DNA of 45,498 nt from a virus. A program made the translations under genes and the position numbers. Position 1 is the first letter of the stretch. Each line of letters begins with the position of its first letter. The notes under the pieces are model-generated. The model worked only from the letters and a program-made list of their open reading frames with translations. It was not told where the DNA came from and searched no databases. Below are positions 3,064-40,269 of the stretch, piece after piece. The stretch spans positions 1 to 45,498 of IMG/VR virus record IMGVR_UViG_3300009151_003627; one strand, given 5' to 3'.

Positions 3064-3946
3064 TATATTCTATATAATCTTTTCTAATTACAACGTTTGT
3101 CGATGGATCTTTGTAACATTCAATAACACTATTAACAGTTGACTCAATTGTTTCTGTAAACTTAAAGTCATAGTCTTTGCAAAGCTTATCTGTATTAATA
3201 TCGAAGTTATATGCTCCTGCAGTATTGCCTTTATCTACAATTTCAATTCCTAGCTTCTTACTAACATAACTAGAAATCTCGTCCACTGTAGCAGTAAATG
3301 AAGCCATATTATACATACCAGGAATAAAGTTATGTCTGCCTTGGTATACTATGCGCTCGACAGCCCGCACAAGATCTTCAATGCATAGGATAGAACGATT
3401 AATATGTTTATTAGCAACCGTAATCTTACCTTCATTAAGTGCATTATACACCATCATATTAATCATAAGGTCGCGGCGAATAACAGGGCTTCCTCCATTA
3501 ACTGTACCGAATCTTAAACCTAAGAGCTGTCTGCCTTGGGCAAGATATTTTTGAGCAGCAATATCTAGAGTAATTTTAGTAAGATCGTAGTTATTAAGAA
3601 TTTCTAACGACATTTTATTTTCAAAAGACATATTATCTGAATTACCGTAAACAGATGCACTGCTTGCGTAAATAATTTTAGTATCCTTAGAAGTCTTTTC
3701 TACAAGGTTAATAAAATTACGGACGTTATTATGCCATGGTGATCTGATATCACCAACACACATCTGTACACTTGAATGCCCAGCTAAAAGAATAATTGTC
3801 TTAAATGGTTCAAGAAACTTTGTAGTAAGTTTATTATAGTCATTAGATCTATTACCATAAACTTCTACTTCATGATTATGACTTCTTAAATAAGGTACTA
3901 AACGCGAACCAATATAGCCGCTACCACCAATTACTAAAATACTCAT
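3056..3946 (-). CDS. NAD-dependent sugar epimerase/dehydratase (extended SDR)
   Basis: A 296-residue extended short-chain dehydrogenase. The Rossmann motif GGSGYIG is at residues 7-13, the serine region YASSASVYG at 93-101 and the catalytic Y120-x3-K124 follows. This family performs NAD(P)-dependent epimerisation, dehydration or reduction of nucleotide sugars. It begins 2 bases after the aminotransferase stop and overlaps the next glycosyltransferase. A 4,6-dehydratase or a 4-epimerase are both possible. Confidence 0.85.
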   Translation of the reverse strand: MSILVIGGSGYIGSRLVPYLRSHNHEVEVYGNRSNDYNKLTTKFLEPFKTIILLAGHSSVQMCVGDIRSPWHNNVRNFINLVEKTSKDTKIIYASSASVYGNSDNMSFENKMSLEILNNYDLTKITLDIAAQKYLAQGRQLLGLRFGTVNGGSPVIRRDLMINMMVYNALNEGKITVANKHINRSILCIEDLVRAVERIVYQGRHNFIPGMYNMASFTATVDEISSYVSKKLGIEIVDKGNTAGAYNFDINTDKLCKDYDFKFTETIESTVNSVIECYKDPSTNVVIRKDYIEYND

Positions 3947-3947
3947 A

Positions 3948-5027
3948 TTATGTTCCTGTATATTCGTTCAACGTCTTAATAATGTGTTCAGTATCAGCAA
4001 GATTCAGCCACCACCCGTTAGGTATACAAACTTGTGTATCTGTAAACGCTGATACACCAGGTAAGTCACCTTCTCTGAATTGAGTAATACTACTATACAT
4101 GTCATTTCTAAAATGAACCGGGCTTGATGCAATAAAATTTTCAGTTAAGTATTGAGTAAAGTGATCTTTAAGGCCAGGCTTGACATGCATACTGAATAAC
4201 CAGTATGAACAGTTAGGATCCCATTCAGGCAAGGTCAATAACGGGTTTTTAACCTTGTTAATATATTCTCTAGAATTTCTTCTGCTACAAGTTACAGAGT
4301 ATTCTGCTTTACTAATATTAGATAAACCAATAGAGGCATTAATATCGTTCATATGATACTTAAACCCAACTTTAGTAATGTCTTGCGTACATCTAAAAGA
4401 CTCATTTTTGGTTCTGTCTAAACCATACCAGCGAAGTGTTCGTGCTTCGTTTTCTGTATCAGGTGGACATATTAAAATACCACCGTCCCCTGTAGTCAAA
4501 AATTTAATTGCTTGAAAACTGTAGCAAATATAATCTCCGCGTTCTAATATATCTGTTGCATGCACATCCCAGCAATGAGCAGCATCTTCAATAACCGGGA
4601 CACCTGTTGCCTTGAGAGCTTTATAATCACAAAACTTACCAGCCCAGTTAACAGCTAAAATAGCTTTAGTTTTAGGTGTAACTAATTTTTTAACTGACTC
4701 AGGATCAATCAAGCCTGTCAAAGGATCAATATCAGCCCAACGAATTCTTGCACCACGATGAATTGCACCAACATTAGAGGCAAAACACGTCTGTGGCGTA
4801 GCAATAACCTCATCCCCAGGTTTAATACCGATTATATCCAGAGATAGATCAATAGCAGCGGTACAGGAATTAACTGTCACCGGTCTTGTCTTACTACCTA
4901 ATACTTTCCATAGTTCATCTTCAAACTCTTCTACAACAGGACCTTGACCGATAAAACCAGACTTTAAAACTTCTGTAACTCTGTCTGCGGTAACGTCAGA
5001 CATTCCTACTTTAAATAACGGAATCAT
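3948..5027 (-). CDS. DegT/DnrJ/EryC1/StrS aminotransferase
   Basis: A PLP-dependent sugar aminotransferase of 359 residues that converts a keto-sugar nucleotide to an amino sugar. PLP-binding elements are VIEDAAHCW (Asp148) and SFQAIKFLTTGDGG with the Schiff-base Lys175. The chosen start is the ATG at 5027 (MIPLFKVG), the usual family N-terminus; an upstream in-frame extension lies within the preceding gene. It overlaps the GNAT gene by 17 bases. Aminotransferase followed by N-acetyltransferase is the classical pair for an acetamido-dideoxy sugar. Confidence 0.9.
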   Translation of the reverse strand: MIPLFKVGMSDVTADRVTEVLKSGFIGQGPVVEEFEDELWKVLGSKTRPVTVNSCTAAIDLSLDIIGIKPGDEVIATPQTCFASNVGAIHRGARIRWADIDPLTGLIDPESVKKLVTPKTKAILAVNWAGKFCDYKALKATGVPVIEDAAHCWDVHATDILERGDYICYSFQAIKFLTTGDGGILICPPDTENEARTLRWYGLDRTKNESFRCTQDITKVGFKYHMNDINASIGLSNISKAEYSVTCSRRNSREYINKVKNPLLTLPEWDPNCSYWLFSMHVKPGLKDHFTQYLTENFIASSPVHFRNDMYSSITQFREGDLPGVSAFTDTQVCIPNGWWLNLADTEHIIKTLNEYTGT

Positions 5028-5475
5028 ATTGATACTCCATAAAAAATAAATTATCGTTTTCACCTGTTACTTTAAAGTTCAGGCCTTCGTATGTTTTAAA
5101 TGCTCGTGTATTAGTTTTTAATACTTCAAGCCGAATAGGTAATGATTTGTGACATTGGTCAACAAGAAACTTAAAAATAACTTTACCTAATCCTTTGTCT
5201 CTGTATTCAGGTACCAGTCCCCCTGTTAATAAAAACTCATCTTCATTTTTATGAACGACACCAAAACCAGCATCAACAATACATACCCCGTGTTCGATAG
5301 CATATGCAATGTAAAGATCGTATTTACGGAACGCAGTCTTAAACCACTCTTCTTGCTGCTCTGGGGTAATGTAGTCTGTACTACGCGTCATATATTCCCT
5401 ACACTTATTACGTATAGTACGAAGGATTTCTGCCTCTGCAGGCGTTGTAACTCTTTTAAAAACTATCTGTGTCAT
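5011..5475 (-). CDS. GNAT N-acetyltransferase
   Basis: A 154-residue GNAT-fold protein. The acetyl-CoA pyrophosphate loop is seen as YRDKGLGKVI, and FKTYEGLNFKVTGEN gives the typical C-terminal Y/F-E-x-x-G-F segment. Its position directly upstream of and overlapping the DegT aminotransferase suggests that it acetylates the amino sugar made by that enzyme, as WecD-type enzymes do. It overlaps the glycosyltransferase gene upstream by 4 bases (ATGA). Protein acetylation is an alternative. Confidence 0.8.
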   Translation of the reverse strand: MTQIVFKRVTTPAEAEILRTIRNKCREYMTRSTDYITPEQQEEWFKTAFRKYDLYIAYAIEHGVCIVDAGFGVVHKNEDEFLLTGGLVPEYRDKGLGKVIFKFLVDQCHKSLPIRLEVLKTNTRAFKTYEGLNFKVTGENDNLFFMEYQYDSVI

Positions 5476-6422
5476 AGAAACACCTCTTTAAATTTATTCA
5501 TTACAGGTACAGGTTTAAATTGCTCTACCCTCTTAGTCCAATCTTCTTTAAAGTCAGGAAGATTGTGAAGTAGGTAATTCAAATGACTTGCATCATTATA
5601 TAATAGACCGCTATCTTTTAACATATCTAAATGGTTTAAATCGTGACCATTGTTCCATGCAAGGACCGGTTTATTAAGCGATAAGAACTCGGCAATAGAT
5701 AGACCGAAACTCTCCCCTCTTTCCCTTGCATGTAACATCACATCACAAGTATTAATAAAGTCTGCTTTACGTTGAACGTCATGAATTTCGTTAATGAACT
5801 TTACATTAGGATGAGATACGAAAGGCTCGGTACCCATCATAAGAAAAACAAACGTATCATTGTCTTTAACCAACTTGGTAATATAATCTTTTACGAATTT
5901 AATATCAAAAGTAAAATAACCGCCCAAGCGACCAATTACAATTTGATCTGGTCTGATACCCAACGCTTCTCTATAATCTTTTTTCGGTTCCGGTAGGTTA
6001 ACAATATGTGGAACAAACGGCATCTTACCATCTGACATTTTATTAGATAACCACTCAGAAATATATGCATACTTGTCACCATGAGGTTCATAATGCTGAA
6101 AGACTGCATGTATAGCTGTCTTAGTATTAGTTACAAGGTCACCCTCTTTGTGACCGGCTCGGATAAAGTAAGCCATGTCTACTTTTTCTTTATCTACAAG
6201 ATTTTGTAACTGGCCGTCTTTATAACAAACGATTTTAAAACGTTGCTTAAGGTTATGGAGTACTACTGCTTCTGTACCCATGTCTTTTTCATAGCCTAGA
6301 CTTTCGTTATAAACAATGACACTCTCATTACCGAGAATCTCTTCATTGTACCTTGCGTAATCTGTTACCGCTACTGTTGTACCTCGGTAGTTTAATGTAT
6401 TTGCGTGGAATAAAATTTTCAT
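5472..6422 (-). CDS. Glycosyltransferase, GT4-like (GT-B fold)
   Basis: A 316-residue GT-B transferase. The N-terminus MKILFHANTLNYRGTTVAV resembles the glycine/threonine acceptor loop of GT4 enzymes. GRLGGYFTFDIK opens the second domain, and ARERGESFGLSIAEFLSLN is the E-x7-E donor-binding motif at about residues 235-253. It overlaps both neighbours by 4 bases. Donor and acceptor are unknown. Confidence 0.8.
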   Translation of the reverse strand: MKILFHANTLNYRGTTVAVTDYARYNEEILGNESVIVYNESLGYEKDMGTEAVVLHNLKQRFKIVCYKDGQLQNLVDKEKVDMAYFIRAGHKEGDLVTNTKTAIHAVFQHYEPHGDKYAYISEWLSNKMSDGKMPFVPHIVNLPEPKKDYREALGIRPDQIVIGRLGGYFTFDIKFVKDYITKLVKDNDTFVFLMMGTEPFVSHPNVKFINEIHDVQRKADFINTCDVMLHARERGESFGLSIAEFLSLNKPVLAWNNGHDLNHLDMLKDSGLLYNDASHLNYLLHNLPDFKEDWTKRVEQFKPVPVMNKFKEVFL

Positions 6423-7084
6423 ACTGTAAATGTTGTAGCTGATGTAAAAAATTCAGTTGTAAATTCGTCTCTAATAACCTGATCGCAACGTTTAACAAAC
6501 ATCTCGATATTTTCAGCCATTCTTGACTGATAGAGGTGGTAGATAGAATTATCAAACACTGTACCAATACCATAGTAGCCAAGATTACTTAAAGGCCAAA
6601 TACCTTCTGAAGAAGGCTTCTCAAAATATGTAGGCATCAGTGCACGGTACTTCATACCTTTTTCTTCAGCCATATAACATATTTCTTCAGCTGTATCTGA
6701 ACGACGTGTTTCAGTAAATGACGGGCGGTCTAGCCTATCATATGCTTTCTTAGAGATTGCATAGAAGCCGGGTGCAGCGTAGATATGAGATTTAGGGGGG
6801 ATGTGATTTGAGACTTGAGCAATGCCAACAAACGTTCCGTCTCTGTATGTATACTTAATATATTCTAAGTAGTTCTTATTGAGAGGAATACAATCGGGTT
6901 CCATAAACACAATAACATCACTTTTAGAATTATTAATTACCCATTGCATCCACATGCCATGATTATGACCATCGCGGTTATCATAATTCATTGGAATTTT
7001 AAAATAATCCATAACACGTTGATGTGCCGATAGCATATCCTTGTCAACGTTATTCCAATGTAACGAATTAAACTCAACTTTCAT
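6419..7084 (-). CDS. Glycosyltransferase, GT-A-like
   Basis: A 221-residue protein with VIVFMEPDCIPLN at about residues 57-69, a DxD-like metal site in the right place for a small GT-A enzyme, preceded by GHNHGMWMQW. The first residues VEFNSLHWNN replace the usual hydrophobic strand, so it may be a short or divergent family member. It overlaps the GT4-like gene by 4 bases and the halogenase-like gene by 11 bases, so the halogenase is transcribed together with the glycan genes. Confidence 0.65.
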   Translation of the reverse strand: MKVEFNSLHWNNVDKDMLSAHQRVMDYFKIPMNYDNRDGHNHGMWMQWVINNSKSDVIVFMEPDCIPLNKNYLEYIKYTYRDGTFVGIAQVSNHIPPKSHIYAAPGFYAISKKAYDRLDRPSFTETRRSDTAEEICYMAEEKGMKYRALMPTYFEKPSSEGIWPLSNLGYYGIGTVFDNSIYHLYQSRMAENIEMFVKRCDQVIRDEFTTEFFTSATTFTV

Positions 7085-29114: not shown

Positions 29115-29489
29115 AATCTTTTCTATTTGCTTTTCTATAATAGGTGCACGTCCTGGCCATTTAATTGTATCCTTCTCAGGGTTCTTCATTAAGTTAACCA
29201 ATAGAGGCAGAATCATTTTTTCAAGAGCAGTTAATTTGGCTTTAACGTCTTTTTCAATCAATGCTTTATACTCATCAGTATCTAAGGGAGTTGAGGCGTT
29301 CTCTAACCTTGATACTGTATCAGCCATGTCAGTTATTAAAGCCTCTAATGCTTGTAGCTTCTCAATAATAGGTTCAGATATGTCTTGAGTATTAACAACT
29401 GGGATAGGTGTATGTACTACAGTCTCATCATCTGCTGTTGAGAAACCAAAATCAAATTCGGAGTCTAGGTATTCTTTAGGAATTGCCAT
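29094..29489 (-). CDS. Hypothetical protein following deformylase (131 aa)
   Basis: The start is the ATG at 29489 (MAIPKEYLDSEFDFGFSTAD), which has GGAAG upstream; a longer frame lies in the deformylase gene. The opening is a short conserved peptide common to T4-like phages, followed by a long helical region (IEKLQALEALITDMADTVSR). Overlaps the deformylase stop by 14 bases and the convergent NUMOD gene by 21. Function unknown. Confidence 0.65.
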   Translation of the reverse strand: MAIPKEYLDSEFDFGFSTADDETVVHTPIPVVNTQDISEPIIEKLQALEALITDMADTVSRLENASTPLDTDEYKALIEKDVKAKLTALEKMILPLLVNLMKNPEKDTIKWPGRAPIIEKQIEKILAITRS

Positions 29490-30051
29490 TTGTTTGTTCT
29501 TCCATTGCTTTCTTAATTTCAAGAAGCTTTTTCTGAGTATACTTCTTGACTAGTTTTTGTTTATAATTATTAAGACGCTTGGTAGCCATATCCCATTTCA
29601 ATTTAGATACTTTGTCTTTCATAGTAGTACCCTGAAGGTGATCAAAGGCATGCTGAAAGATTCTAGCTGTTAATCCTTGAAACTCATTCTGTTGTAGCTC
29701 ACCATTTTTATTGTAGTATTCTACAGTGACCGCAATTGGTCTTTTTACAATAACTAATATGCCTGGGAAGGTAAGACTTCCTTCATTCATTAATGCTTCT
29801 TCTTTTGAATAAGACAATATAGTAGGATTAAACACTTCTACCCTTGCATGGTCTATACCCATAACGAACATACACATATCAAGACCAACTTGGGGAGCAG
29901 ATAGAGCAGCCCCTCCCATCTCAGACATTCTATCAAACATAATGTTGGTAAGCATAGAGGCGTCTACATCGTCAAAATTAAACTTAGAAGCAAACCCTTG
30001 ATTTAATTCATTAACCGGTAATATCTTTAATTCACTCTTTTTAATAATCAT
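29476..30051 (-). CDS. def: Degenerate peptide deformylase (probable pseudoenzyme)
   Basis: A 191-residue peptide deformylase fold. Motif 1 is GGAALSAPQ (residues 46-54), close to G-x-G-x-A-A-x-Q. Motif 2 reads EGSL instead of EGCL, replacing the metal-ligand cysteine by Ser92, and motif 3 reads HAFDH instead of HExDH, replacing the catalytic glutamate by Ala135. Both changes would be expected to abolish normal catalysis. The C-terminus is a lysine-rich helix. Active deformylases are known from other marine phages. It overlaps gp46 as ATGA. It may have a binding role instead. Confidence 0.8.
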   Translation of the reverse strand: MIIKKSELKILPVNELNQGFASKFNFDDVDASMLTNIMFDRMSEMGGAALSAPQVGLDMCMFVMGIDHARVEVFNPTILSYSKEEALMNEGSLTFPGILVIVKRPIAVTVEYYNKNGELQQNEFQGLTARIFQHAFDHLQGTTMKDKVSKLKWDMATKRLNNYKQKLVKKYTQKKLLEIKKAMEEQTNGNS

Positions 30052-31760: not shown

Positions 31761-32818
31761 GCTTCTTCGTAGTTCTGCGCTTCAACATATAACGTCTTCA
31801 TTAACGTTTTAATGCGGTCTTTATCTGCCTCAGTATCCAAACTATCAACATATTGTGACAATAAGGTAACAGTATCTTCTAAATCTATCTCTTGATCACC
31901 CATTGCATCGGCTTCAAACTCAGATAGATCCTCAATAATTTTTAACTCTAAAGGGTTAACTTTATACAGTCTCTCAATAAACTGATCGTACTTATAGTAA
32001 TCTTTTTTATTAACAACTATTAACTTAATGTGCTGGTTAGCATACTGGCTTACATCAACAGTAGAAGGATCTACTTTCTCGTCGTCGTAATAGACTTTAG
32101 AAAAGATTGAAAACGGGTTTTGAATAAAATCCAACGATCTCTCACTGGTGTCGAATATATGAAAGCCTCTAGGGTCTTCGAAATCCGCCCAGGTAAGCTC
32201 ATAAGGATTTCCAAGATAGTTAATGTTCCCATTACTACTACGGTGATGAAAATGTCCAGAACAAACCGTATCAAACTTCTCAAATATCTTAGGATCAAAT
32301 CCTTCATCGTTCTCATGACCTTTATACATCTGAAAGCCGGCAATTTCAAAATGCCCGAACAATACCTGGGCATCGGTAGTCTTAATAGCTTCCATACTCT
32401 GATTATAATTATCTGTACATATCCATGGCATCATGAATATCTTAGACCCATCATCGAATACTAACTCGGAAGGTGTATCAATAACATTGAACTCATAGTC
32501 CTTAAGCAATAGACGAGGAGAGTTAACATCGTTGGTATTCTTAAAAAAAGTATCGTGGTTACCTACAATCATATGTAGTTCGATATTCCTTTTCTTAATT
32601 TCGTCAAAAAAGTAATTACGACAAGAAGACAGGGTATTAAAATTGATATACTTACGGCGATCGAAACAATCACCAAGGTGCACAATATGCCGTATACCTC
32701 CTTTATCAATCTCAGGGAAGAAGACTTCCTCATAAAATCTCCTAAAGAAATTATCAAAGGGGATACTATCCGAACGGGCACCGAAGTGGGTATCGGTGAC
32801 CAAGCATAATTTAGTCAT
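31757..32818 (-). CDS. gp47: gp47 recombination nuclease subunit (Mre11/SbcD-like)
   Basis: A 353-residue calcineurin-like phosphoesterase. Metal motifs are DTHFG near residue 9, HLGDCFDRR, VGNHD and GHFHH, the Mre11 set. The start is the ATG at 32818 (MTKLCLVTDTHFG), which overlaps the QueD stop by 8 bases; a longer frame would run through queD. With gp46 it processes DNA ends for recombination-dependent replication. Confidence 0.95.
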   Translation of the reverse strand: MTKLCLVTDTHFGARSDSIPFDNFFRRFYEEVFFPEIDKGGIRHIVHLGDCFDRRKYINFNTLSSCRNYFFDEIKKRNIELHMIVGNHDTFFKNTNDVNSPRLLLKDYEFNVIDTPSELVFDDGSKIFMMPWICTDNYNQSMEAIKTTDAQVLFGHFEIAGFQMYKGHENDEGFDPKIFEKFDTVCSGHFHHRSSNGNINYLGNPYELTWADFEDPRGFHIFDTSERSLDFIQNPFSIFSKVYYDDEKVDPSTVDVSQYANQHIKLIVVNKKDYYKYDQFIERLYKVNPLELKIIEDLSEFEADAMGDQEIDLEDTVTLLSQYVDSLDTEADKDRIKTLMKTLYVEAQNYEEA

Positions 32819-33287
32819 TAAACTCGTTATCTTCTTGATGTCCAACACGCATTGCCATATTACTATCAGTCTCACGTACCTCTACCTTACAGCACCAGAT
32901 GCGGTCTTGCTCTCCATAGCTTGGTAAGAAGATTGTATTGATATACTCATACAAAAAGTCTGCCAAACCTTCACACCCGGTCTTTTCTACTTCTGTAATC
33001 TTAGCAATACCTTGCTTACCTAATTCTAGTAAGTACTCTCTCTTAGGGTCGTCTTGTGCAACAAGTAAGGTATGATCAAACCATTCTTCTAGTTTATCTT
33101 TCAGAGGGCGTAAGCCTCCAAAGTCCATTACCCAATTGCGAACATCTAGCGTGTCAGACTCAAACTCAAAATGAAATGATAGAGCATAGCCATGGACCAA
33201 GTTACAATGACTATCAGCTCTCCACTGACGGTATGCAACAGGGCCAATCTGCTTATAAGTTTTAGTTGAGATATATTTTTTTGCCAT
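32811..33287 (-). CDS. queD: 6-carboxytetrahydropterin synthase (QueD)
   Basis: A 158-residue PTPS-fold enzyme that converts dihydroneopterin triphosphate to 6-carboxytetrahydropterin, step two of 7-deazaguanine synthesis. SHCNLVHGYAL (C28, H32) aligns with the catalytic cysteine and zinc site; the usual third HGH histidine is a tyrosine here, a variant I recall from phage and alphaproteobacterial members. VMDFGGLRPLK and FDHTLL (D71-H72) give the other conserved blocks, and VRET carries the substrate glutamate. Overlaps gp47 by 8 bases. Confidence 0.9.
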   Translation of the reverse strand: MAKKYISTKTYKQIGPVAYRQWRADSHCNLVHGYALSFHFEFESDTLDVRNWVMDFGGLRPLKDKLEEWFDHTLLVAQDDPKREYLLELGKQGIAKITEVEKTGCEGLADFLYEYINTIFLPSYGEQDRIWCCKVEVRETDSNMAMRVGHQEDNEFND

Positions 33288-33357: not shown

Positions 33358-33888
33358 TTATGTATACTTTTTATCGTGCTCTTTGCCGATACCATAACTG
33401 CCATCGTACATTTTTAATGCTTCTGCATCAAAGGATAAGTACTGCCCTACCCTCGTACCTTGCCTAATGCGAGCCGGGCCAGTCGTAACATGAAGTACCC
33501 CGGCCATGACACCATGATAGCCAGAATCATAAAGACCTGAAGTAATAAAACAACCATTGCGGTTAAGAGTGCTACGAGTAATGACCCAACCAGCTTCACC
33601 CTCACCCACATGGATGACGTTTTCCATAACGATCTCATAACTCCCCGGGTATAGCGTATAATAACCTTCTCCGTCTGTAAAGAGTTCTTCAGAGCCTCTA
33701 TGCCTCTTGTGATCATTACTTACCTCAAACATTTCTTGGTTGATTTGAAATACTTTACCTAAACGTAGATCTACAGCATTAGGTTGAATATCTTCATCAA
33801 CAACATTACTCAGCTTAGTCCTACTACTCTCACCCATTACATGCTTCATACTGAAGGGCTCTGAATATAATTTATATGTAACTGTCAT
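33358..33888 (-). CDS. dUTPase/dCTP deaminase-like protein
   Basis: A 176-residue trimeric dUTPase-fold protein. QPNAVDLRLGKVFQ is motif 1, RSTLNRNG motif 2, GLYDSGYHG motif 3 with the nucleophile-activating Asp, and ARIRQGTRVGQYL motif 4. The Asp favours a dUTP/dNTP pyrophosphatase over a dCTP deaminase, though neither can be excluded. Overlaps the amidotransferase gene as ATGA inside the 7-deazaguanine operon; it may serve general nucleotide metabolism or help keep modified-base precursors clean. Confidence 0.75.
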   Translation of the reverse strand: MTVTYKLYSEPFSMKHVMGESSRTKLSNVVDEDIQPNAVDLRLGKVFQINQEMFEVSNDHKRHRGSEELFTDGEGYYTLYPGSYEIVMENVIHVGEGEAGWVITRSTLNRNGCFITSGLYDSGYHGVMAGVLHVTTGPARIRQGTRVGQYLSFDAEALKMYDGSYGIGKEHDKKYT

Positions 33889-34502
33889 ACATTCTCCGGA
33901 ATATAATATGGATTCTCCATCGTTTCAAAATAGGCGACTGGAGATATTTGCTTGTATTTAAGATTAATTTTAAATACTTTATTAGGTAGTAGAGATTCAG
34001 TAAACTCCACTTTAGTAGAAGAGAAGTTTAAATCTTTATCATAGAACATTGGTGAGATTTCATTTCTGAATACAAACAACTCACCACTATTATACATGAT
34101 ACAGGCAAAAGTGCCATCGACTCTGGATAATGCACTCCACCCGTAATTAAGAACTTGCTCAAGTAACCATTGAGTATCCCAGGTACCTTCAGTCAGATTC
34201 TTTTGCTTGATAATACCATTATGCCACAGCATGCAATCCCCATACACTGCCGGGTGAATGTTATTGGCGTTAGTAGTAGGCGCCTGGCTGTGTGCAATAT
34301 AATATTTGTTCTCTCCTTCAGCAAGACCCTTAATAAGACCCTCAGGCATTTTATCTCTATCCTGCATCATGGTATCCAAACGTACTTTATGCTCATCGAA
34401 CGAAAACGCGGAAAGGGAGTAACTTAACTCCCCCCTATAAGCATTCAATCGATATAAATCGGTCAGTTTATTCTGACTAAATGAACCAGTTATTGCACAC
34501 AT
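33885..34502 (-). CDS. Class II glutamine amidotransferase, QueC partner
   Basis: A 205-residue Ntn-type glutaminase domain without a synthetase domain. The nucleophile Cys2 follows the initiator Met (MCAITGSF), AHSQAPTT and LWHNGIIK give the conserved amidotransferase loops, and VDGTFACIMY the C-terminal strand. It begins one base after queC. In some phages the same domain is fused to QueC, so this protein most likely feeds ammonia from glutamine to QueC for nitrile formation. Overlaps the dUTPase-like gene as ATGA. Confidence 0.8.
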   Translation of the reverse strand: MCAITGSFSQNKLTDLYRLNAYRGELSYSLSAFSFDEHKVRLDTMMQDRDKMPEGLIKGLAEGENKYYIAHSQAPTTNANNIHPAVYGDCMLWHNGIIKQKNLTEGTWDTQWLLEQVLNYGWSALSRVDGTFACIMYNSGELFVFRNEISPMFYDKDLNFSSTKVEFTESLLPNKVFKINLKYKQISPVAYFETMENPYYIPENV

Positions 34503-34503
34503 T

Positions 34504-35265
34504 TTATACCTTCATTTTTCCGATTAGGTCTTGCCAGGGGATTACTTTAGAATACTCTACAGGATCATTATAACCTATCTTAGCGAAATTTGCAATACGT
34601 TCCGAACAACTTGGGCACTCCCCACATGAACGATGTTGGTCATCTGGATTGTAACACGTCATAGTAAATGCTGTCAACATAAAGTTACCATCTAGCTCTT
34701 GCAAGATCTGTAACTCATCGTACTTAGAAAGCTGACTGAAAGGTGCAGTTAGTTTAATCTTAATGATTCGGTTTTCAGACAGCAAGTCGTTTACTTTATC
34801 AACCCAGCGTTGTGTAGTATCGTGATAACCATACTCATCATGTACCTGTAACCCACATACAACTGTATCGACATTTTGTGTCTCTGCAAATGCAGCAGCA
34901 ATAGACATCAGAATCATATTACGGTTAGGTACGTAAGTCTTAGGACGAGGATCACCTAAAACATCTTTAATAGTAGGCATAGCCATGTCGGTATCGACGT
35001 TAGCAGAGAAACCTTTACTGATATCGCCAAGGAAAGATGCATCTACAACTCGATGCTTTACACCGAGTATCTGAGTAGACATTTTAGCCATTTCAATTTC
35101 ACGCTTCTGCTTCTGACCGTAGTAGAAGGTTAGAGCAGATACATTTTCCTTGCCATACTTCTGTACCGCTAGTCTCATAGCAATGGTACTGTCCATACCA
35201 CCAGATAAAATAACTACACAGCCCTTAACATCAGGCAATAATGCTAACGCTTCATTTGAGGTCAT
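34504..35265 (-). CDS. queC: 7-cyano-7-deazaguanine synthase (QueC)
   Basis: A 253-residue ATP-PPase-fold enzyme converting 7-carboxy-7-deazaguanine to preQ0. The ATP loop SGGMDS is at 21-26; zinc-binding cysteines are C204, C214, C217 and C220. FYYGQKQKREIEMA and YVPNRNMI are further family signatures. Overlaps the upstream MazG-like gene by 14 bases and is followed after one base by the amidotransferase gene. Confidence 0.95.
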   Translation of the reverse strand: MTSNEALALLPDVKGCVVILSGGMDSTIAMRLAVQKYGKENVSALTFYYGQKQKREIEMAKMSTQILGVKHRVVDASFLGDISKGFSANVDTDMAMPTIKDVLGDPRPKTYVPNRNMILMSIAAAFAETQNVDTVVCGLQVHDEYGYHDTTQRWVDKVNDLLSENRIIKIKLTAPFSQLSKYDELQILQELDGNFMLTAFTMTCYNPDDQHRSCGECPSCSERIANFAKIGYNDPVEYSKVIPWQDLIGKMKV

Positions 35266-35497
35266 CTTGTTTCCCTTTCAATTCTTTTTGTATACGGTGA
35301 ATATAGACAGTAGCATCCATTAGTTCTTCTTTAAGATGCTGAATCCATTGCATAAGATCAAGATCAGTACGCTCGGTAGTTACCCCGTACTTTACGAACC
35401 CGTGATCGGCCCTTTTCATGAACTCTAAGCATATTTCATTAACGTTGTTATCTTCTACGCTTAGTTCAAATTTAACTAATTTATTTCGCTTCATCAT
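35252..35497 (-). CDS. MazG-like small protein in 7-deazaguanine operon
   Basis: An 81-residue protein with DHGFVKYGVTTERTDLDLMQ and WIQHLKEELMDATVYIHRIQ, a pattern recalled from small phage dNTP pyrophosphohydrolases of the MazG superfamily (EE-x-x-D metal site). The full four-helix set is too short to be sure. Overlaps queF as ATGA and queC by 14 bases. It may clear competing nucleotides such as dGTP or be unrelated to the pathway. Confidence 0.55.
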   Translation of the reverse strand: MMKRNKLVKFELSVEDNNVNEICLEFMKRADHGFVKYGVTTERTDLDLMQWIQHLKEELMDATVYIHRIQKELKGKQDDLK

Positions 35498-36414
35498 TGT
35501 CTTGCAGTCTTTTCACAAAAGTTATAAGCATCTATAATAGGTGCTTGATTTAAAAGATAATAATTAGATGCACGAGTAGGGTTAATATCGATACCGCCTC
35601 TGCGAGTGTACAAGCAGGTTACCAATAACTCTTCAGGGTCTAGTAAGTCCCACAGGCGTTTGTAAATGCATTCAGCGATCTCTTCGTGAAAGTGATTTTC
35701 TTTGCGCATCGATACAATATACTGTAACAATGATTCAGGAGTAACAGACTTCTCACCCTTAATATGAATATAAACATCACCCCAATCAGGTTGATTAGTT
35801 ACCCGGCAATTGGAACGTAGTGAATGAGATCGCCATCTTTCATAACGTCCAATAGAAGGTACAACTTCTAAAATATCAGATGACTCATTAAAGTGATCAA
35901 ATGACATCCCAGCAACGTTACAATACTCTTCAAGCGACATAAAGTCACCCTTCAAAGGCTTAACTGTATCAACGTCACCAACTGCAATATAGACACCAAC
36001 TTCACCACCAACGGCTTTAGAAAGGTCTCGTTCAATTTGCTCTTCAATAAAGTGAAGCTCTTCCTTACCAATAATTAATCGAGCCATATTGTAAGAGTTT
36101 AAATACAACTTGACAGACTTAGACTCAACAATATTAGGAGTACTAGAGGAGTAAGTAAACTTTAACCAACCGGAGATAGGAAAGCCATTCTTTTGTAGAG
36201 TAGAGAACTCATAAGCATTCCAAGCATCCATACCAACAAAAGGTAACTCTTCTTCATGAATATCGTAACCTGTACGATTTAAATGACGAGGTACAGAAAC
36301 CAATAGGCTTGGATCTACTTCATCAGGAGTTACATAAGGCTTGACAGCTGACCCGTCTCCAGCCTTACCAAGGTGAACACCGACCAGCTTATTCAGTTCT
36401 TCTTGATTATCCAT
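35494..36414 (-). CDS. queF: preQ0 reductase, long form (QueF)
   Basis: A 306-residue, two-module (E. coli type) nitrile reductase that reduces preQ0 to preQ1 with NADPH. ESKSVKLYLNSYN (97-109) marks the T-fold module; the catalytic Cys203 and Asp210 are in LRSNCRVTNQPDWGD, and FHEEIAECIY (H243, E244) follows. All catalytic residues are present. QueF in an operon with a DNA transglycosylase means preQ1-type DNA modification is expected. Overlaps its neighbours by one base (TAATG) and four bases (ATGA). Confidence 0.95.
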   Translation of the reverse strand: MDNQEELNKLVGVHLGKAGDGSAVKPYVTPDEVDPSLLVSVPRHLNRTGYDIHEEELPFVGMDAWNAYEFSTLQKNGFPISGWLKFTYSSSTPNIVESKSVKLYLNSYNMARLIIGKEELHFIEEQIERDLSKAVGGEVGVYIAVGDVDTVKPLKGDFMSLEEYCNVAGMSFDHFNESSDILEVVPSIGRYERWRSHSLRSNCRVTNQPDWGDVYIHIKGEKSVTPESLLQYIVSMRKENHFHEEIAECIYKRLWDLLDPEELLVTCLYTRRGGIDINPTRASNYYLLNQAPIIDAYNFCEKTARQ

Positions 36415-36947
36415 TATCTTCCTTCTAAATGATCTATAATTGTATTAACTCTATTACGCACAGAGCCTTTGACTCTAAGCATACTTAATTCATTTTTTTC
36501 AATTGTTGCTTCAAACAAATCTGCAATTTCATCTCTAAATTGTTTATTAGTACTACGTACACCGTCATCTATAATTTCAAACTCTGGTTCAATATAGAAC
36601 ACGTAATCATACGAATGCCATACCTTGTTAAATACATCTTTAACATATCTTAAGGTACTGGCATTAATTCGATTATTTTTAAACAAATACGCACTATAAA
36701 CTAAACCATCTAATGCAGTACGATCGGTTAACATATTACCATACATGAATACATTAACGATATGCTCATTCATAATGAGACGTTGAGTAATATCAGTACC
36801 TTCTTCGTTAATAGGTAATCCATAACTCTTTACGCGACGAGTAACCTCATCACATATAACATAATCTTTAAATAGTTTTTCAGAGCGCAATGCATTTAAT
36901 AATGTAGTCTTACCTACCGATTGCGCACCCGTAATACCAATCTTCAT
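36414..36947 (-). CDS. P-loop kinase-like NTPase (AAA_28 type)
   Basis: A 177-residue P-loop protein starting MKIGITGAQSVGKTT; the start at 36947 overlaps the formyltransferase stop as ATGA and has AAAGGG upstream. YGNMLTDRTALDGLVYSAYL is the acidic/arginine signature shared by NadR-type and related kinases, and FYIEPEFEIIDDG resembles the lid region. It may phosphorylate a nucleoside or base precursor. It is placed between the formyltransferase and queF in the same coupled operon, so it is a candidate 7-deazaguanine pathway member, but nothing in the sequence proves that. Confidence 0.65.
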   Translation of the reverse strand: MKIGITGAQSVGKTTLLNALRSEKLFKDYVICDEVTRRVKSYGLPINEEGTDITQRLIMNEHIVNVFMYGNMLTDRTALDGLVYSAYLFKNNRINASTLRYVKDVFNKVWHSYDYVFYIEPEFEIIDDGVRSTNKQFRDEIADLFEATIEKNELSMLRVKGSVRNRVNTIIDHLEGR

Positions 36948-37486
36948 AATCCCTTTTCCCTCAAGAAGAAATTCCATGCTGATAACGAAGTCATCTTAAG
37001 TGAAGCATATAAGTCTTCTCTATTATAATTTCTATTACGTAGATGAACAGCTTTTAATACATCACCTCCATCTAATTCAGCAGTACATTTATGTACAACA
37101 CTTCCTATTATAGTATACTTGTCATTATCTTGCCATACTTTTTCTTGCGGATCCTTACCCTTTAACTCAGGGTAGAGATCAATTGCTCCAGGATGGCCGT
37201 TATATATTTCGTATTTCTCACATATATCAGCTGGTAGAATGCGAAGGTAGCCATGAAGACTAATAAGGGTCTGAGGAACATTATATACTACCTGATTTCT
37301 AAAGTAATTCATTATCATATCATGTTTGGCAGACATGATAGTAACACCCAGTTCACGAATGCCTGGGTGAAATTTAATTTTATCTTCAAAATTATTAGTT
37401 ACCAGTAAGTCTGGCTTACGTCCAATAGACTTAGATAACTCTACAATCTCGGAGCCTGTTTGACTAAAGAATGCAACCCAATTCAT
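36944..37486 (-). CDS. dpdN: preQ1-type formyltransferase, DpdN-like
   Basis: A 180-residue formyltransferase with the PurN fold. The catalytic triad is intact: N96 and H98 in YNGHPG and D139 in ELDGGDV. The opening MNWVAFFSQTGSE corresponds to the PurN first strand and phosphate loop, but the GAR-binding part is shortened. The family transfers a formyl group from 10-formyltetrahydrofolate to an amine. In a preQ1-DNA operon the expected target is the aminomethyl group, giving 7-(formylamino)methyl-7-deazaguanine; DpdN is the name used for the predicted phage enzyme. It overlaps the DpdA-like gene by one base and the NTPase as ATGA. Confidence 0.7.
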   Translation of the reverse strand: MNWVAFFSQTGSEIVELSKSIGRKPDLLVTNNFEDKIKFHPGIRELGVTIMSAKHDMIMNYFRNQVVYNVPQTLISLHGYLRILPADICEKYEIYNGHPGAIDLYPELKGKDPQEKVWQDNDKYTIIGSVVHKCTAELDGGDVLKAVHLRNRNYNREDLYASLKMTSLSAWNFFLREKGL

Positions 37487-38295
37487 TATCTGTAACCATG
37501 AACGTATGATCTAAAATACTTAATATTATGGTTAATGGTATGCATAGTGGCTACCGAGGGTTCAGGAGTGTTAAGTAGCTCAATGAGTTTGAGGGATTTC
37601 TTAGTAGCCAGACCGCCAGGCTCGTAGCCAATGCCCAACAAAGCGTGAACAATAGGGCTAGAGGTATCGAGCGATTCGATCCAATCAAACCCCTCACGGT
37701 AGAACATAAATTCAATCGGTAACGCACACCCAAGGAGGTGATGCGGCTTTTCAGTATTGATAACACCATCTTCTAATAATCTTGTTAAAGTTTGCACCCT
37801 ACCTAATGTATAACCCATCCATTTATTAGGATGAGGACAAATCTCGAGGTAGTACGAGTAGTCAAATGAAATTGCAATCTTATCTACACCAATCACATTA
37901 TCTAGATAGTCGTAGCATTGAACGAGATCTTCATAACTCTTACCCTGAACAACACCTATACTTTTACTATTCTTTGGTGTCTTACCCCAATAGTTCTCTT
38001 TCCAGTCCAATGCTTTATCCATTGTGCCTAGAGTATCTTCAAGTACGTCAGGAATAATATACTCAGTAGGTTTAAGTTTATCAATCCATTCAAAATACTT
38101 ACCTGCTTCAAAAGCAGTACCTAACTCAAAAATAGAATTATCTAGCAATACCTGGCGGCCCTGGGCTAGAGAATCTTCAAAGAATTGGTAGTAGGTTGGT
38201 TCTGTTTCGAACAAGTGGACAAGAGCGTAATCGTAATCGTTATAACTACGAGACCGATCAAGAAGGCAAAGCGGGGATTCATGGCTAATTTTCAT
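37486..38295 (-). CDS. dpdA: DpdA-like DNA guanine transglycosylase
   Basis: A 269-residue TIM-barrel protein of the tRNA-guanine transglycosylase superfamily, shorter than tRNA TGTs and without their zinc site. Marks are LLDNSIFELG (Asp52), IIPDVLED (Asp83), GVVQGKSYEDL (Gln117), HHLLGCALP (residues 185-193) and SLDTSSPIVHA (Asp210, candidate nucleophile). Phage DpdA proteins insert preQ0, preQ1 or derivatives in place of guanine in DNA. It sits with all biosynthetic genes in one operon, which strongly supports this role. Subfamily cannot be assigned by eye. Overlaps the nuclease-like gene upstream as ATGA. Confidence 0.75.
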   Translation of the reverse strand: MKISHESPLCLLDRSRSYNDYDYALVHLFETEPTYYQFFEDSLAQGRQVLLDNSIFELGTAFEAGKYFEWIDKLKPTEYIIPDVLEDTLGTMDKALDWKENYWGKTPKNSKSIGVVQGKSYEDLVQCYDYLDNVIGVDKIAISFDYSYYLEICPHPNKWMGYTLGRVQTLTRLLEDGVINTEKPHHLLGCALPIEFMFYREGFDWIESLDTSSPIVHALLGIGYEPGGLATKKSLKLIELLNTPEPSVATMHTINHNIKYFRSYVHGYR

Positions 38296-38729
38296 TGTAG
38301 TTTCTCAATAATATCTAATGCAACAGGAGCCCAGATTACAGTATCATCGTACTTAGTTTTCTTGGCTCGGTGCTCATTATTACTTACATAAGTTATCATA
38401 TCTTCTATATTATAACGGTAAATAGATTTTGTATCCACGTCTACACCGTAAATTTGTTTTGCTGATGTAGTATACAACCACCCTGCCTGCTGTTTTTTAT
38501 TATTAAACAATTCCACGCAAAGAGTACCCATGTAATAGTTTGCTTTAACATCAACAGGAATACCATTAATGATACAATCAATCTTTAGTCTTACTTGACT
38601 AATAATATCGTTTCTATCTTCAAATAGTATATTATTAGTCTTGCAATATTCTTCTACAATGGCCTCGCCAAGATCGCCCTTGGCACCTTTAGCACCATAG
38701 CGACCTTCGGAGTTTGCATACCAAGTCAT
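38292..38729 (-). CDS. PD-(D/E)XK nuclease-like protein
   Basis: A 145-residue protein: KGDLGEAIVEEYC (E22) begins the core helix, KIDCIINGIPVDVKANYY gives D51 and the D60-x-K62 pair, the classic PD-(D/E)XK active site, followed by a helical end. It overlaps the DpdA-like gene by 4 bases and follows folE by three. It may be a DNA repair or restriction-like nuclease; its place directly upstream of the transglycosylase makes a link to modified DNA (targeting or cutting unmodified DNA) possible but unproven. Confidence 0.6.
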   Translation of the reverse strand: MTWYANSEGRYGAKGAKGDLGEAIVEEYCKTNNILFEDRNDIISQVRLKIDCIINGIPVDVKANYYMGTLCVELFNNKKQQAGWLYTTSAKQIYGVDVDTKSIYRYNIEDMITYVSNNEHRAKKTKYDDTVIWAPVALDIIEKLQ

Positions 38730-38732
38730 AAA

Positions 38733-39410
38733 TTACTTCTTAATAAGAGACATGAACTCAGCTCGGCAATCGGGCTCACTCTTAAAGCAACCACCAAGCT
38801 TGGCTGTGAGGGTAGAAGAGGAATGATCTTCAACACCTCTGCTCTTAACACAGTAATGAGTACCTTCAATCACAACTGCAACGTCTTCAGTACCTAGGAT
38901 AAAAGACAGAGCATGATATACTTGCTCGGCAATACGTTCCTGCACCTGAGGGCGACGGGCAAAGTACTCTACAATACGGTTCAACTTAGATAAACCCAGG
39001 ACTTTACCCTTAGGAATATAACCAATGTGTGCCTTACCGTCGATAGTAACAAAGTGATGCTCGCAGTTAGACATCATAGTAATGTCTTTTTCAACCACCA
39101 TTTCATCGTACCCCATTTTATTCTCAATCACGGTACACTTAGGAAAGTTCTCAGGCTTAAGACCCCAAAAGATTTCCCGTACAAACATCTTAGCTACACG
39201 CTTAGGTGTATCCATCAACGAGTCATCGGTCAAATCAAGACCCAACGTCTCCATAATGACAGCAAAGTTCTTTTCAATCTTTGCAATCTTACGCTCATCT
39301 TTTACTCCAAGTCTATCTAGTACAATAGGTGTATGCACACCTTTAGAGATAAGATACTCTTCTACTTTATAGCCTAGTTCGGCGTCTGTTTTTCCAGCTT
39401 GTAATGACAT
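38733..39410 (-). CDS. folE: GTP cyclohydrolase I (FolE)
   Basis: A 225-residue enzyme converting GTP to dihydroneopterin triphosphate, the first step of 7-deazaguanine synthesis. Zinc ligands C116 and H119 (NCEHH) and C187 (THYC) are intact, and GYIPKGKVLGLSKLNRIVEY and FARRPQVQERI are the family signatures. It starts one base after queE, confirming operon membership. Serving folate synthesis is an alternative role but less likely here. Confidence 0.95.
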   Translation of the reverse strand: MSLQAGKTDAELGYKVEEYLISKGVHTPIVLDRLGVKDERKIAKIEKNFAVIMETLGLDLTDDSLMDTPKRVAKMFVREIFWGLKPENFPKCTVIENKMGYDEMVVEKDITMMSNCEHHFVTIDGKAHIGYIPKGKVLGLSKLNRIVEYFARRPQVQERIAEQVYHALSFILGTEDVAVVIEGTHYCVKSRGVEDHSSSTLTAKLGGCFKSEPDCRAEFMSLIKK

Positions 39411-39411
39411 T

Positions 39412-40269
39412 TTAGGTTCCCCATTCGTTTTTAAATAAAGGCACTTGAAGTCGATCGCTGTAGCGATAACCCTTCTTCATGGCAAGTTCTGCCACAGCCC
39501 GGTTGTTCATATGATATACCGACTCAACACCTCCAACAGGCATTAAGTATACCGGTCCCATGAAGCCAGCTGCACGGTATGCTTCTACTGCCTTCTCTGC
39601 TTCATCTGCATCCTCTTGAGATGCAACTACAAATTTTAAGTACACATAACCTACCATACCATAATCGGCAACAATTTCTGGCTTAATAGCATCATCCCAT
39701 TTTTCACCTGATACCGATAGCTTAGGTGATACAGAGAATGTAATTTGGCGATCAAAGTTACCAGGTACTCCCCAGCCCCATCTATCTAAATGGTCTTTAA
39801 ACTCTTTAGTTAGTTCTTGTGTACCATTGGTCTCAAAGGTAATCTCTTTTAATGCTCTCATCTTAGGATGATTAAGCAAATCTGGGTATGCTCTTTGCCA
39901 CCCTAGTAAAGGCTCACCCCCGGTAATTACAAGATGTTCTTCTTTCCATTCTTTGTATGGTAGAGAATCCACAATAGCTTCGGCAACCGAGTCAGTATCA
40001 AGAACGGGAGATAGATGCTTAAAACGAGGATCCCAACTAGCGTATGAATCACAGCCAGTACTAACCAACGGTAGTTCTTTATAGTTAAGAAATTTACCAA
40101 CTTCTGCGGCCACAAAATCGACCTCCTTACTTTGTTCACCTTTAGGCATACCAAAGCCACTACAGGTAAAATTACAACCAAAGGTACGAAGAAATACAGA
40201 AGGTACGCCCATGTAGCGACCCTCACCTTGAATAGAATAGAATAATTCTGCTACTTTAAGTTTAGCCAT
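39412..40269 (-). CDS. queE: 7-carboxy-7-deazaguanine synthase (QueE)
   Basis: A 285-residue radical SAM enzyme acting on 6-carboxytetrahydropterin. Start MAKLKVAELFYSIQGEG is the standard QueE opening, LVITGGEPLL the GGE motif, and MPVGGVESV a later signature. The iron-sulfur motif is split: C32 and C36 (GCNFTC) are followed by a 36-residue insertion before C73 in GCDSYASWD, which aligns with the C-D-T-x-Y-x-W-D end of a normal CX3CX2C motif. First enzyme gene of the operon; overlaps the membrane-protein stop by one base. Confidence 0.92.
   Translation of the reverse strand: MAKLKVAELFYSIQGEGRYMGVPSVFLRTFGCNFTCSGFGMPKGEQSKEVDFVAAEVGKFLNYKELPLVSTGCDSYASWDPRFKHLSPVLDTDSVAEAIVDSLPYKEWKEEHLVITGGEPLLGWQRAYPDLLNHPKMRALKEITFETNGTQELTKEFKDHLDRWGWGVPGNFDRQITFSVSPKLSVSGEKWDDAIKPEIVADYGMVGYVYLKFVVASQEDADEAEKAVEAYRAAGFMGPVYLMPVGGVESVYHMNNRAVAELAMKKGYRYSDRLQVPLFKNEWGT

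Follow-up and report, generated by a model that had tools for sequence, protein, structure and literature searches.

A PurN-fold formyltransferase linked to dpdA and queF in an uncultured virus and its probable role in preQ1 formylation

Described 7-deazaguanine systems and the operon in the window

Cui et al. 2023 (NAR 51:9214, doi 10.1093/nar/gkad657) reportedly found phage DNA to contain 2'-deoxy-7-(formylamino)methyl-7-deazaguanine (fdPreQ1) and put forward DpdN as a predicted dPreQ1 formyltransferase. The same work is said to have introduced the name DpdA3 in connection with full guanine replacement and to have concluded that insertion is post-replicative. A literature search on DpdN, fdPreQ1 and DpdA3 returned nothing on topic. 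In two other systems the DNA has been analyzed: Campylobacter phages CP220 and CPt10 have 100% of dG replaced by dADG (PMC8306585), and about 15% dPreQ1 was measured in the DNA of Vibrio phage 6E35.1a (PMC12028318).

The window, by which we mean the whole 45.5-kb IMG/VR viral record analyzed here, encodes a related operon. Its minus-strand order is queE, folE, a 145-aa ORF, dpdA, the formyltransferase gene, a kinase gene, queF, an 81-aa ORF, queC, gat, dcd and queD, with the following features:

39412..40269, minus strand: QueE, radical SAM 7-carboxy-7-deazaguanine synthase (weak Pfam radical SAM/Fer4_12 matches; cluster position and conservation)
38733..39410, minus strand: FolE, GTP cyclohydrolase I (Pfam E 1e-60)
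38292..38729, minus strand: 145-aa ORF between folE and dpdA, conserved in many relatives (no Pfam or PADLOC match)
37486..38295, minus strand: DNA-guanine transglycosylase, DpdA3-like type, 269 aa (phrog_19058; homology to DpdA)
36944..37486, minus strand: PurN-fold formyltransferase, DpdN-like, 180 aa, triad N96/H98/D139 (ORF, Pfam Formyl_trans_N, structural model)
36414..36947, minus strand: AAA_28 P-loop nucleoside/nucleotide kinase, 177 aa from an internal ATG (Pfam AAA_28 E 9e-16)
35494..36414, minus strand: QueF, preQ0 to preQ1 reductase (Pfam QueF_N and QueF; TIGR03138 at 231 bits, under the 293 cut-off)
35252..35497, minus strand: 81-aa ORF between queF and queC, conserved among relatives (phrog_17558; MazG-like by eye only, no Pfam match)
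34504..35265, minus strand: QueC, preQ0 synthase (Pfam QueC E 1.7e-52; TIGR00364 above cut-off)
33885..34502, minus strand: stand-alone class II glutamine amidotransferase (Gat), beginning MC, hence Cys2 (phrog_12378 E 8e-44; Pfam GATase_6 E 1.6e-4, below cut-off)
32811..33287, minus strand: QueD (Pfam PTPS, phrog_2389)

Overlaps of 1 to 4 nt join dpdA to the formyltransferase gene, the formyltransferase gene to the kinase gene, and the kinase gene to queF. The first is a TAATG, in which dpdA shares 1 nt with the formyltransferase start, and the second is an ATGA shared by the formyltransferase stop and the kinase start. For the kinase, the ATG at 36947, which overlaps the formyltransferase stop, is a more likely start than the one upstream at 36977. 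The original prediction had placed the formyltransferase gene between a DpdA-like gene and queF; dpdA does adjoin it, but the kinase gene separates it from queF.

QueF retains the motifs ESKSVKLY, SNC..QPDWG (SNCRVTNQPDWG) and FHE. In this nitrile reductase these are the NADPH motif, the catalytic Cys and Asp, and the His-Glu pair. With a separate Gat beside queC, the operon carries the fused Gat-QueC in split form, and Gat may feed ammonia to QueC. The two are likewise separate in Vibrio phage 6E35.1a (L189 7676-8281) and Pseudomonas phage pf16 (L190 7719-8357).

The closest isolate operon is that of Flavobacterium phage vB_FspM_immuto, which has the same order of dpdA, formyltransferase, kinase and queF. 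The window differs from it in the separate Gat gene by QueC and in the order of folE, queD and queE. Its DpdA is 51% identical to the gene annotated as DpdA in immuto and about 40% identical to the homologues in CPt10 and CP220, phages with full guanine replacement; we take it to be of the DpdA3 type. CP220 and CPt10 share this type of DpdA and have a homologous AAA_28 kinase immediately after dpdA, whereas they have neither a formyltransferase nor queF beside dpdA, and their end product differs. Phage 6E35.1a has folE, a transglycosylase, queF and queC in a row, and its QueF is 46% identical to that of the window. Unlike the window, however, it has a long transglycosylase of 458 aa, a cluster that lacks the formyltransferase, and no kinase in the genes checked.

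A first search for relatives of the formyltransferase yielded 34 loci, and a profile search found relatives encoded on 491 IMG/VR stretches; on the reading given below, this large family of uncultured-virus genes would be tied to one DNA-base modification. In cellular genomes (n = 84,980) the only match lies on an 11.6-kb contig carrying the same gene cluster; the family is therefore virus-bound. Among the relatives, queF follows the formyltransferase gene in all 66 with enough flank, the AAA_28 kinase gene lies between the two in 60 of these 66, and dpdA is directly upstream in 63 of 70. In its linkage to queF and dpdA, the phage formyltransferase gene agrees with the description of DpdN. Another locus, L167 (5998-7724), has a dpdA of the window type and, immediately after it, queF; it lacks both the formyltransferase gene and the kinase gene and offers a natural comparison for a pathway that ends at dPreQ1.

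Fold, active site and probable substrate of the formyltransferase

The ORF predicted at 36944-37486 occupies exactly these positions on the minus strand (180 codons, ATG start). Its product matches Pfam Formyl_trans_N barely above the cut-off (27.7 versus 26.1 bits) and also matches phrog_9240. It is not a chance ORF, given its relatives on hundreds of IMG/VR stretches and a predicted fold that matches PurN over most of its length. The AlphaFold model (pLDDT 95.1, pTM 0.89) has PurN as its best structural match (Z 20.2, rmsd 2.2 Å, 171 of 180 residues), and PurU, Fmt and ArnA rank behind it (Z 17-19). This comparison, which the original prediction had named as a check, bears out its PurN fold. 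So does the alignment for the intact N/H/D triad: N96, H98 and D139 are invariant in 53 members and align with E. coli PurN N106, H108 and D144. The LxGxxRI strand is likewise common to both proteins. 10-formyl-THF amine formyltransferases have this fold and this triad.

The part that binds glycinamide ribonucleotide (GAR) had been described as shortened. We reject this, as the model and PurN chains of 184-191 aa match from one terminus to the other; the difference lies in the substrate-contact residues. PurN N13 and E173 contact the phosphate and ribose of GAR. The PurN loop SGNGSN13 reads SQTGSE13 in the formyltransferase, with E13 in 53 of 53 members, whereas PurN chains in the PDB have N at the equivalent position. 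In the multiple alignment with the family, PurN E173 falls on an invariant S167; a pairwise alignment shifts this by one and puts it on L168, and neither residue is acidic. The acidic E13 could instead read the guanine edge of the base. Together, E13, H78, D112, Q114 and S167 distinguish the family from PurN, the name under which isolate homologues are annotated.

We consider it probable, at roughly 85%, that the protein is a 10-formyl-THF-dependent enzyme of the DpdN kind that N-formylates the preQ1 aminomethyl group, and that the product reaches phage DNA via the adjoining transglycosylase. In this scheme FolE, QueD, QueE and QueC, the last with its separate Gat, would produce preQ0, which QueF would reduce to preQ1. 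The N96/H98/D139 site would act on the preQ1 amine to give (formylamino)methyl-7-deazaguanine, and DpdA would swap guanine for the modified base. The linkage to queF, the intact QueF motifs and the dPreQ1 in 6E35.1a, which has a related QueF, indicate that preQ1 is very probably the product of the operon's earlier steps and the substrate of a formylation that follows. We infer the substrate, product and folate donor of the enzyme. Formylation of the aminomethyl group, as originally predicted, gains support from the fold and triad, from the linkage to queF and dpdA, and from the family-wide replacement of the residues that hold GAR.

Formylation of preQ1 has already been proposed as a prediction, under the name DpdN, and the kinase association may be new. 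We presume that the window enzyme is of that kind, given the description of DpdN and the immuto phages of Flavobacterium, the one group of isolate homologues and the only full-length isolate matches (42% identity). What the two share is the predicted conversion of dPreQ1 in phage DNA to (formylamino)methyl-7-deazaguanine and, to judge by the description, the gene context; the window copy comes from an uncultured virus and is matched to DpdN by description.

Three substrates can be considered for the formylation step: the free base and DNA, as originally proposed, and a nucleotide, which we add on account of the kinase neighbor. Formylation before replication is at least as likely as formylation on DNA, given this neighbor and the acidic residue at the PurN phosphate site. 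We see about an even chance that the enzyme acts on free preQ1, or on a deoxynucleotide derived from it, before the base enters DNA, and that DpdA or a polymerase handles the formylated form. PurN itself uses a small molecule, the kinase gene adjoins, and glutamate in place of the phosphate-contacting N13 would suit a guanine edge better than a phosphate. However, formyl-preQ1 as a DpdA substrate is hypothetical, and the DpdA of L167, located beside queF with no formyltransferase, presumably handles unformylated bases.

It is somewhat less probable that the enzyme acts after replication on dPreQ1 already in DNA, as the name dPreQ1 formyltransferase implies. Recent literature treats phage 7-deazaguanine modification as occurring at the nucleic-acid level (PMC12783734), and the family median pI of about 7 would permit contact with DNA. 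Yet the model and the fold comparison show nothing added to the PurN fold, neither an extra segment nor a domain that would bind DNA, and it is not obvious what the adjoining nucleotide kinase would do if bases are exchanged on DNA.

A role as an auxiliary PurN that raises purine production, of the kind found in cyanophages, is very improbable. The fold, the phrog_9240 match and the PurN annotation of the Flavobacterium homologue would be consistent with it, but the protein scores only 26 bits against the PurN equivalog TIGR00639, whose cut-off is 150 bits and which recognizes both E. coli PurN (281 bits) and a cyanophage PurN (190 bits). The cyanophage protein also retains the equivalents of N13 and E173, and its gene adjoins neither dpdA nor queF, whereas queF always accompanies the formyltransferase. 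In a small tree, two PurN sequences stand apart from the formyltransferase clade on a long branch with support of 1.0. We therefore reject this role on the TIGR00639 result, the gene context, the replaced GAR contacts and the tree, on all of which cyanophage PurN differs.

Equally improbable are a different amine as the substrate, for example a sugar or preQ1 bound to tRNA, and hydrolysis of formyl-THF, since Fmt, ArnA and PurU do share the fold but the protein, at its small size, lacks their extra domains and is syntenic with dpdA and queF; an amine of the same pathway would be a possible substrate compatible with that synteny.

Kinase genes beside dpdA

The model of the kinase (pLDDT 90.5) resembles the NadR kinase domain (Z 18.2), deoxynucleoside kinases (15.8) and thymidylate kinase (15.2). 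In the six loci that lack the AAA_28 kinase, a protein of 81-89 aa occupies the same spot, and the four distinct sequences tested all match DUF3310 (E 3e-10 to 3e-12). T7 gp1.7, a kinase for dGMP and dTMP, belongs to this family (PMC12846349, PMC7693777).

Relatives of the window-type DpdA, previously unannotated, also occur in five isolate phages, each directly beside a small P-loop kinase gene:

L175:4001-4780, Cellulophaga phage phiST
L088:5896-6684, Bacillus phage BSP7
L176:4001-4771, Weizmannia phage Youna2
L089:5980-6774, Chryseobacterium phage MA9V-3
L086:7001-7777, Campylobacter phage CPt10

The neighbor is an AAA_18 protein in MA9V-3 and phiST, and another small P-loop protein, dNK-like, in BSP7 and Youna2. 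We considered the kinase as part of formylation and dropped this, as AAA_28 follows dpdA in Campylobacter phages that have no formyltransferase or queF alongside.

With DpdA sequences clustered at 70% identity, a kinase-like neighbor is present in 41 of 44 window-type clusters (42 with phiST included on the strength of its Pfam match) and in 0 of 12 9g-type clusters, most of the clusters having been collected via the formyltransferase operon and only five kinase-bearing isolate lineages being independent of it. Independent evidence for the association therefore comes from these five lineages and from the exchange of the kinase for DUF3310. The clustered counts supersede a raw 107 of 111 DpdA loci that included duplicate contigs. 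The exceptions are L167, where the formyltransferase is missing too, and Brevundimonas phage StAshley. No kinase was found in the genes checked around the long DpdA of pf16, as around that of 6E35.1a. The kinase association tracks the DpdA type, not formylation.

The contrast between DpdA types, together with the replacement of the kinase by DUF3310 at the same spot, suggests incorporation at the nucleotide level. We tentatively propose, as a possibility of less than even odds, that the modified guanine is made as a deoxynucleotide: the short DpdA would put preQ1 or formyl-preQ1 in place of the base of dGMP or of a comparable small molecule, the kinase would phosphorylate the product and a polymerase would insert it. 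The kinase would fit such a route; in a base swap on finished DNA, which releases guanine as the base and not as dGMP, it has no obvious task. The main alternative role of the kinase is ordinary precursor supply. The isoelectric points of the DpdA types, a hint of DNA binding, are not decisive (5.5 versus 5.9).

If incorporation does occur via the nucleotide, full guanine replacement would be allowed. The kinase link makes it testable how some phages replace every guanine while other transglycosylase phages modify only part. Should the modified nucleotide prove to be what the kinase acts on, an exception would be needed to the accepted view that DNA receives 7-deazaguanines only once it has been replicated.

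Inserted and neighboring genes

Several relatives have inserts in the operon. In L011, a tryptophan-halogenase family gene (5153-6709, Pfam E 5e-92) and a DUF6445 gene (3946-4614) flank the formyltransferase gene, and further decoration of the base is conceivable. Genes of the 2OG-Fe(II) oxygenase family occur in L018 (1451-2038) and L015 (1913-2431), and another DUF6445 gene in L024 (7339-8001).

In L026 (385-945, 911-1588), the gene after that of the formyltransferase codes for a GIY-YIG homing endonuclease. The C-terminal half of this formyltransferase is divergent, while its N-terminal half and the neighboring genes stay close to those of the window; the mosaic arose perhaps by co-conversion. 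A similar half-and-half pattern is seen in L025. In the window itself, the 145-aa ORF (38292-38729, minus strand) has by eye a PD-(D/E)XK nuclease-like pattern (GDLGEAIVEEY, IDCIINGIPVDVK).

The window also encodes a peptide deformylase homologue (29476-30051, minus strand, Pfam E 2.5e-32). It is probably inactive or altered, as EGCLS reads EGSLT and HExDH reads HAFDH, and we set it aside as a reversal step for formylation because this copy looks inactive. The deformylase of L014 has similar motif changes, and more distant relatives, one with EGCLT, are located near the operon in other loci.
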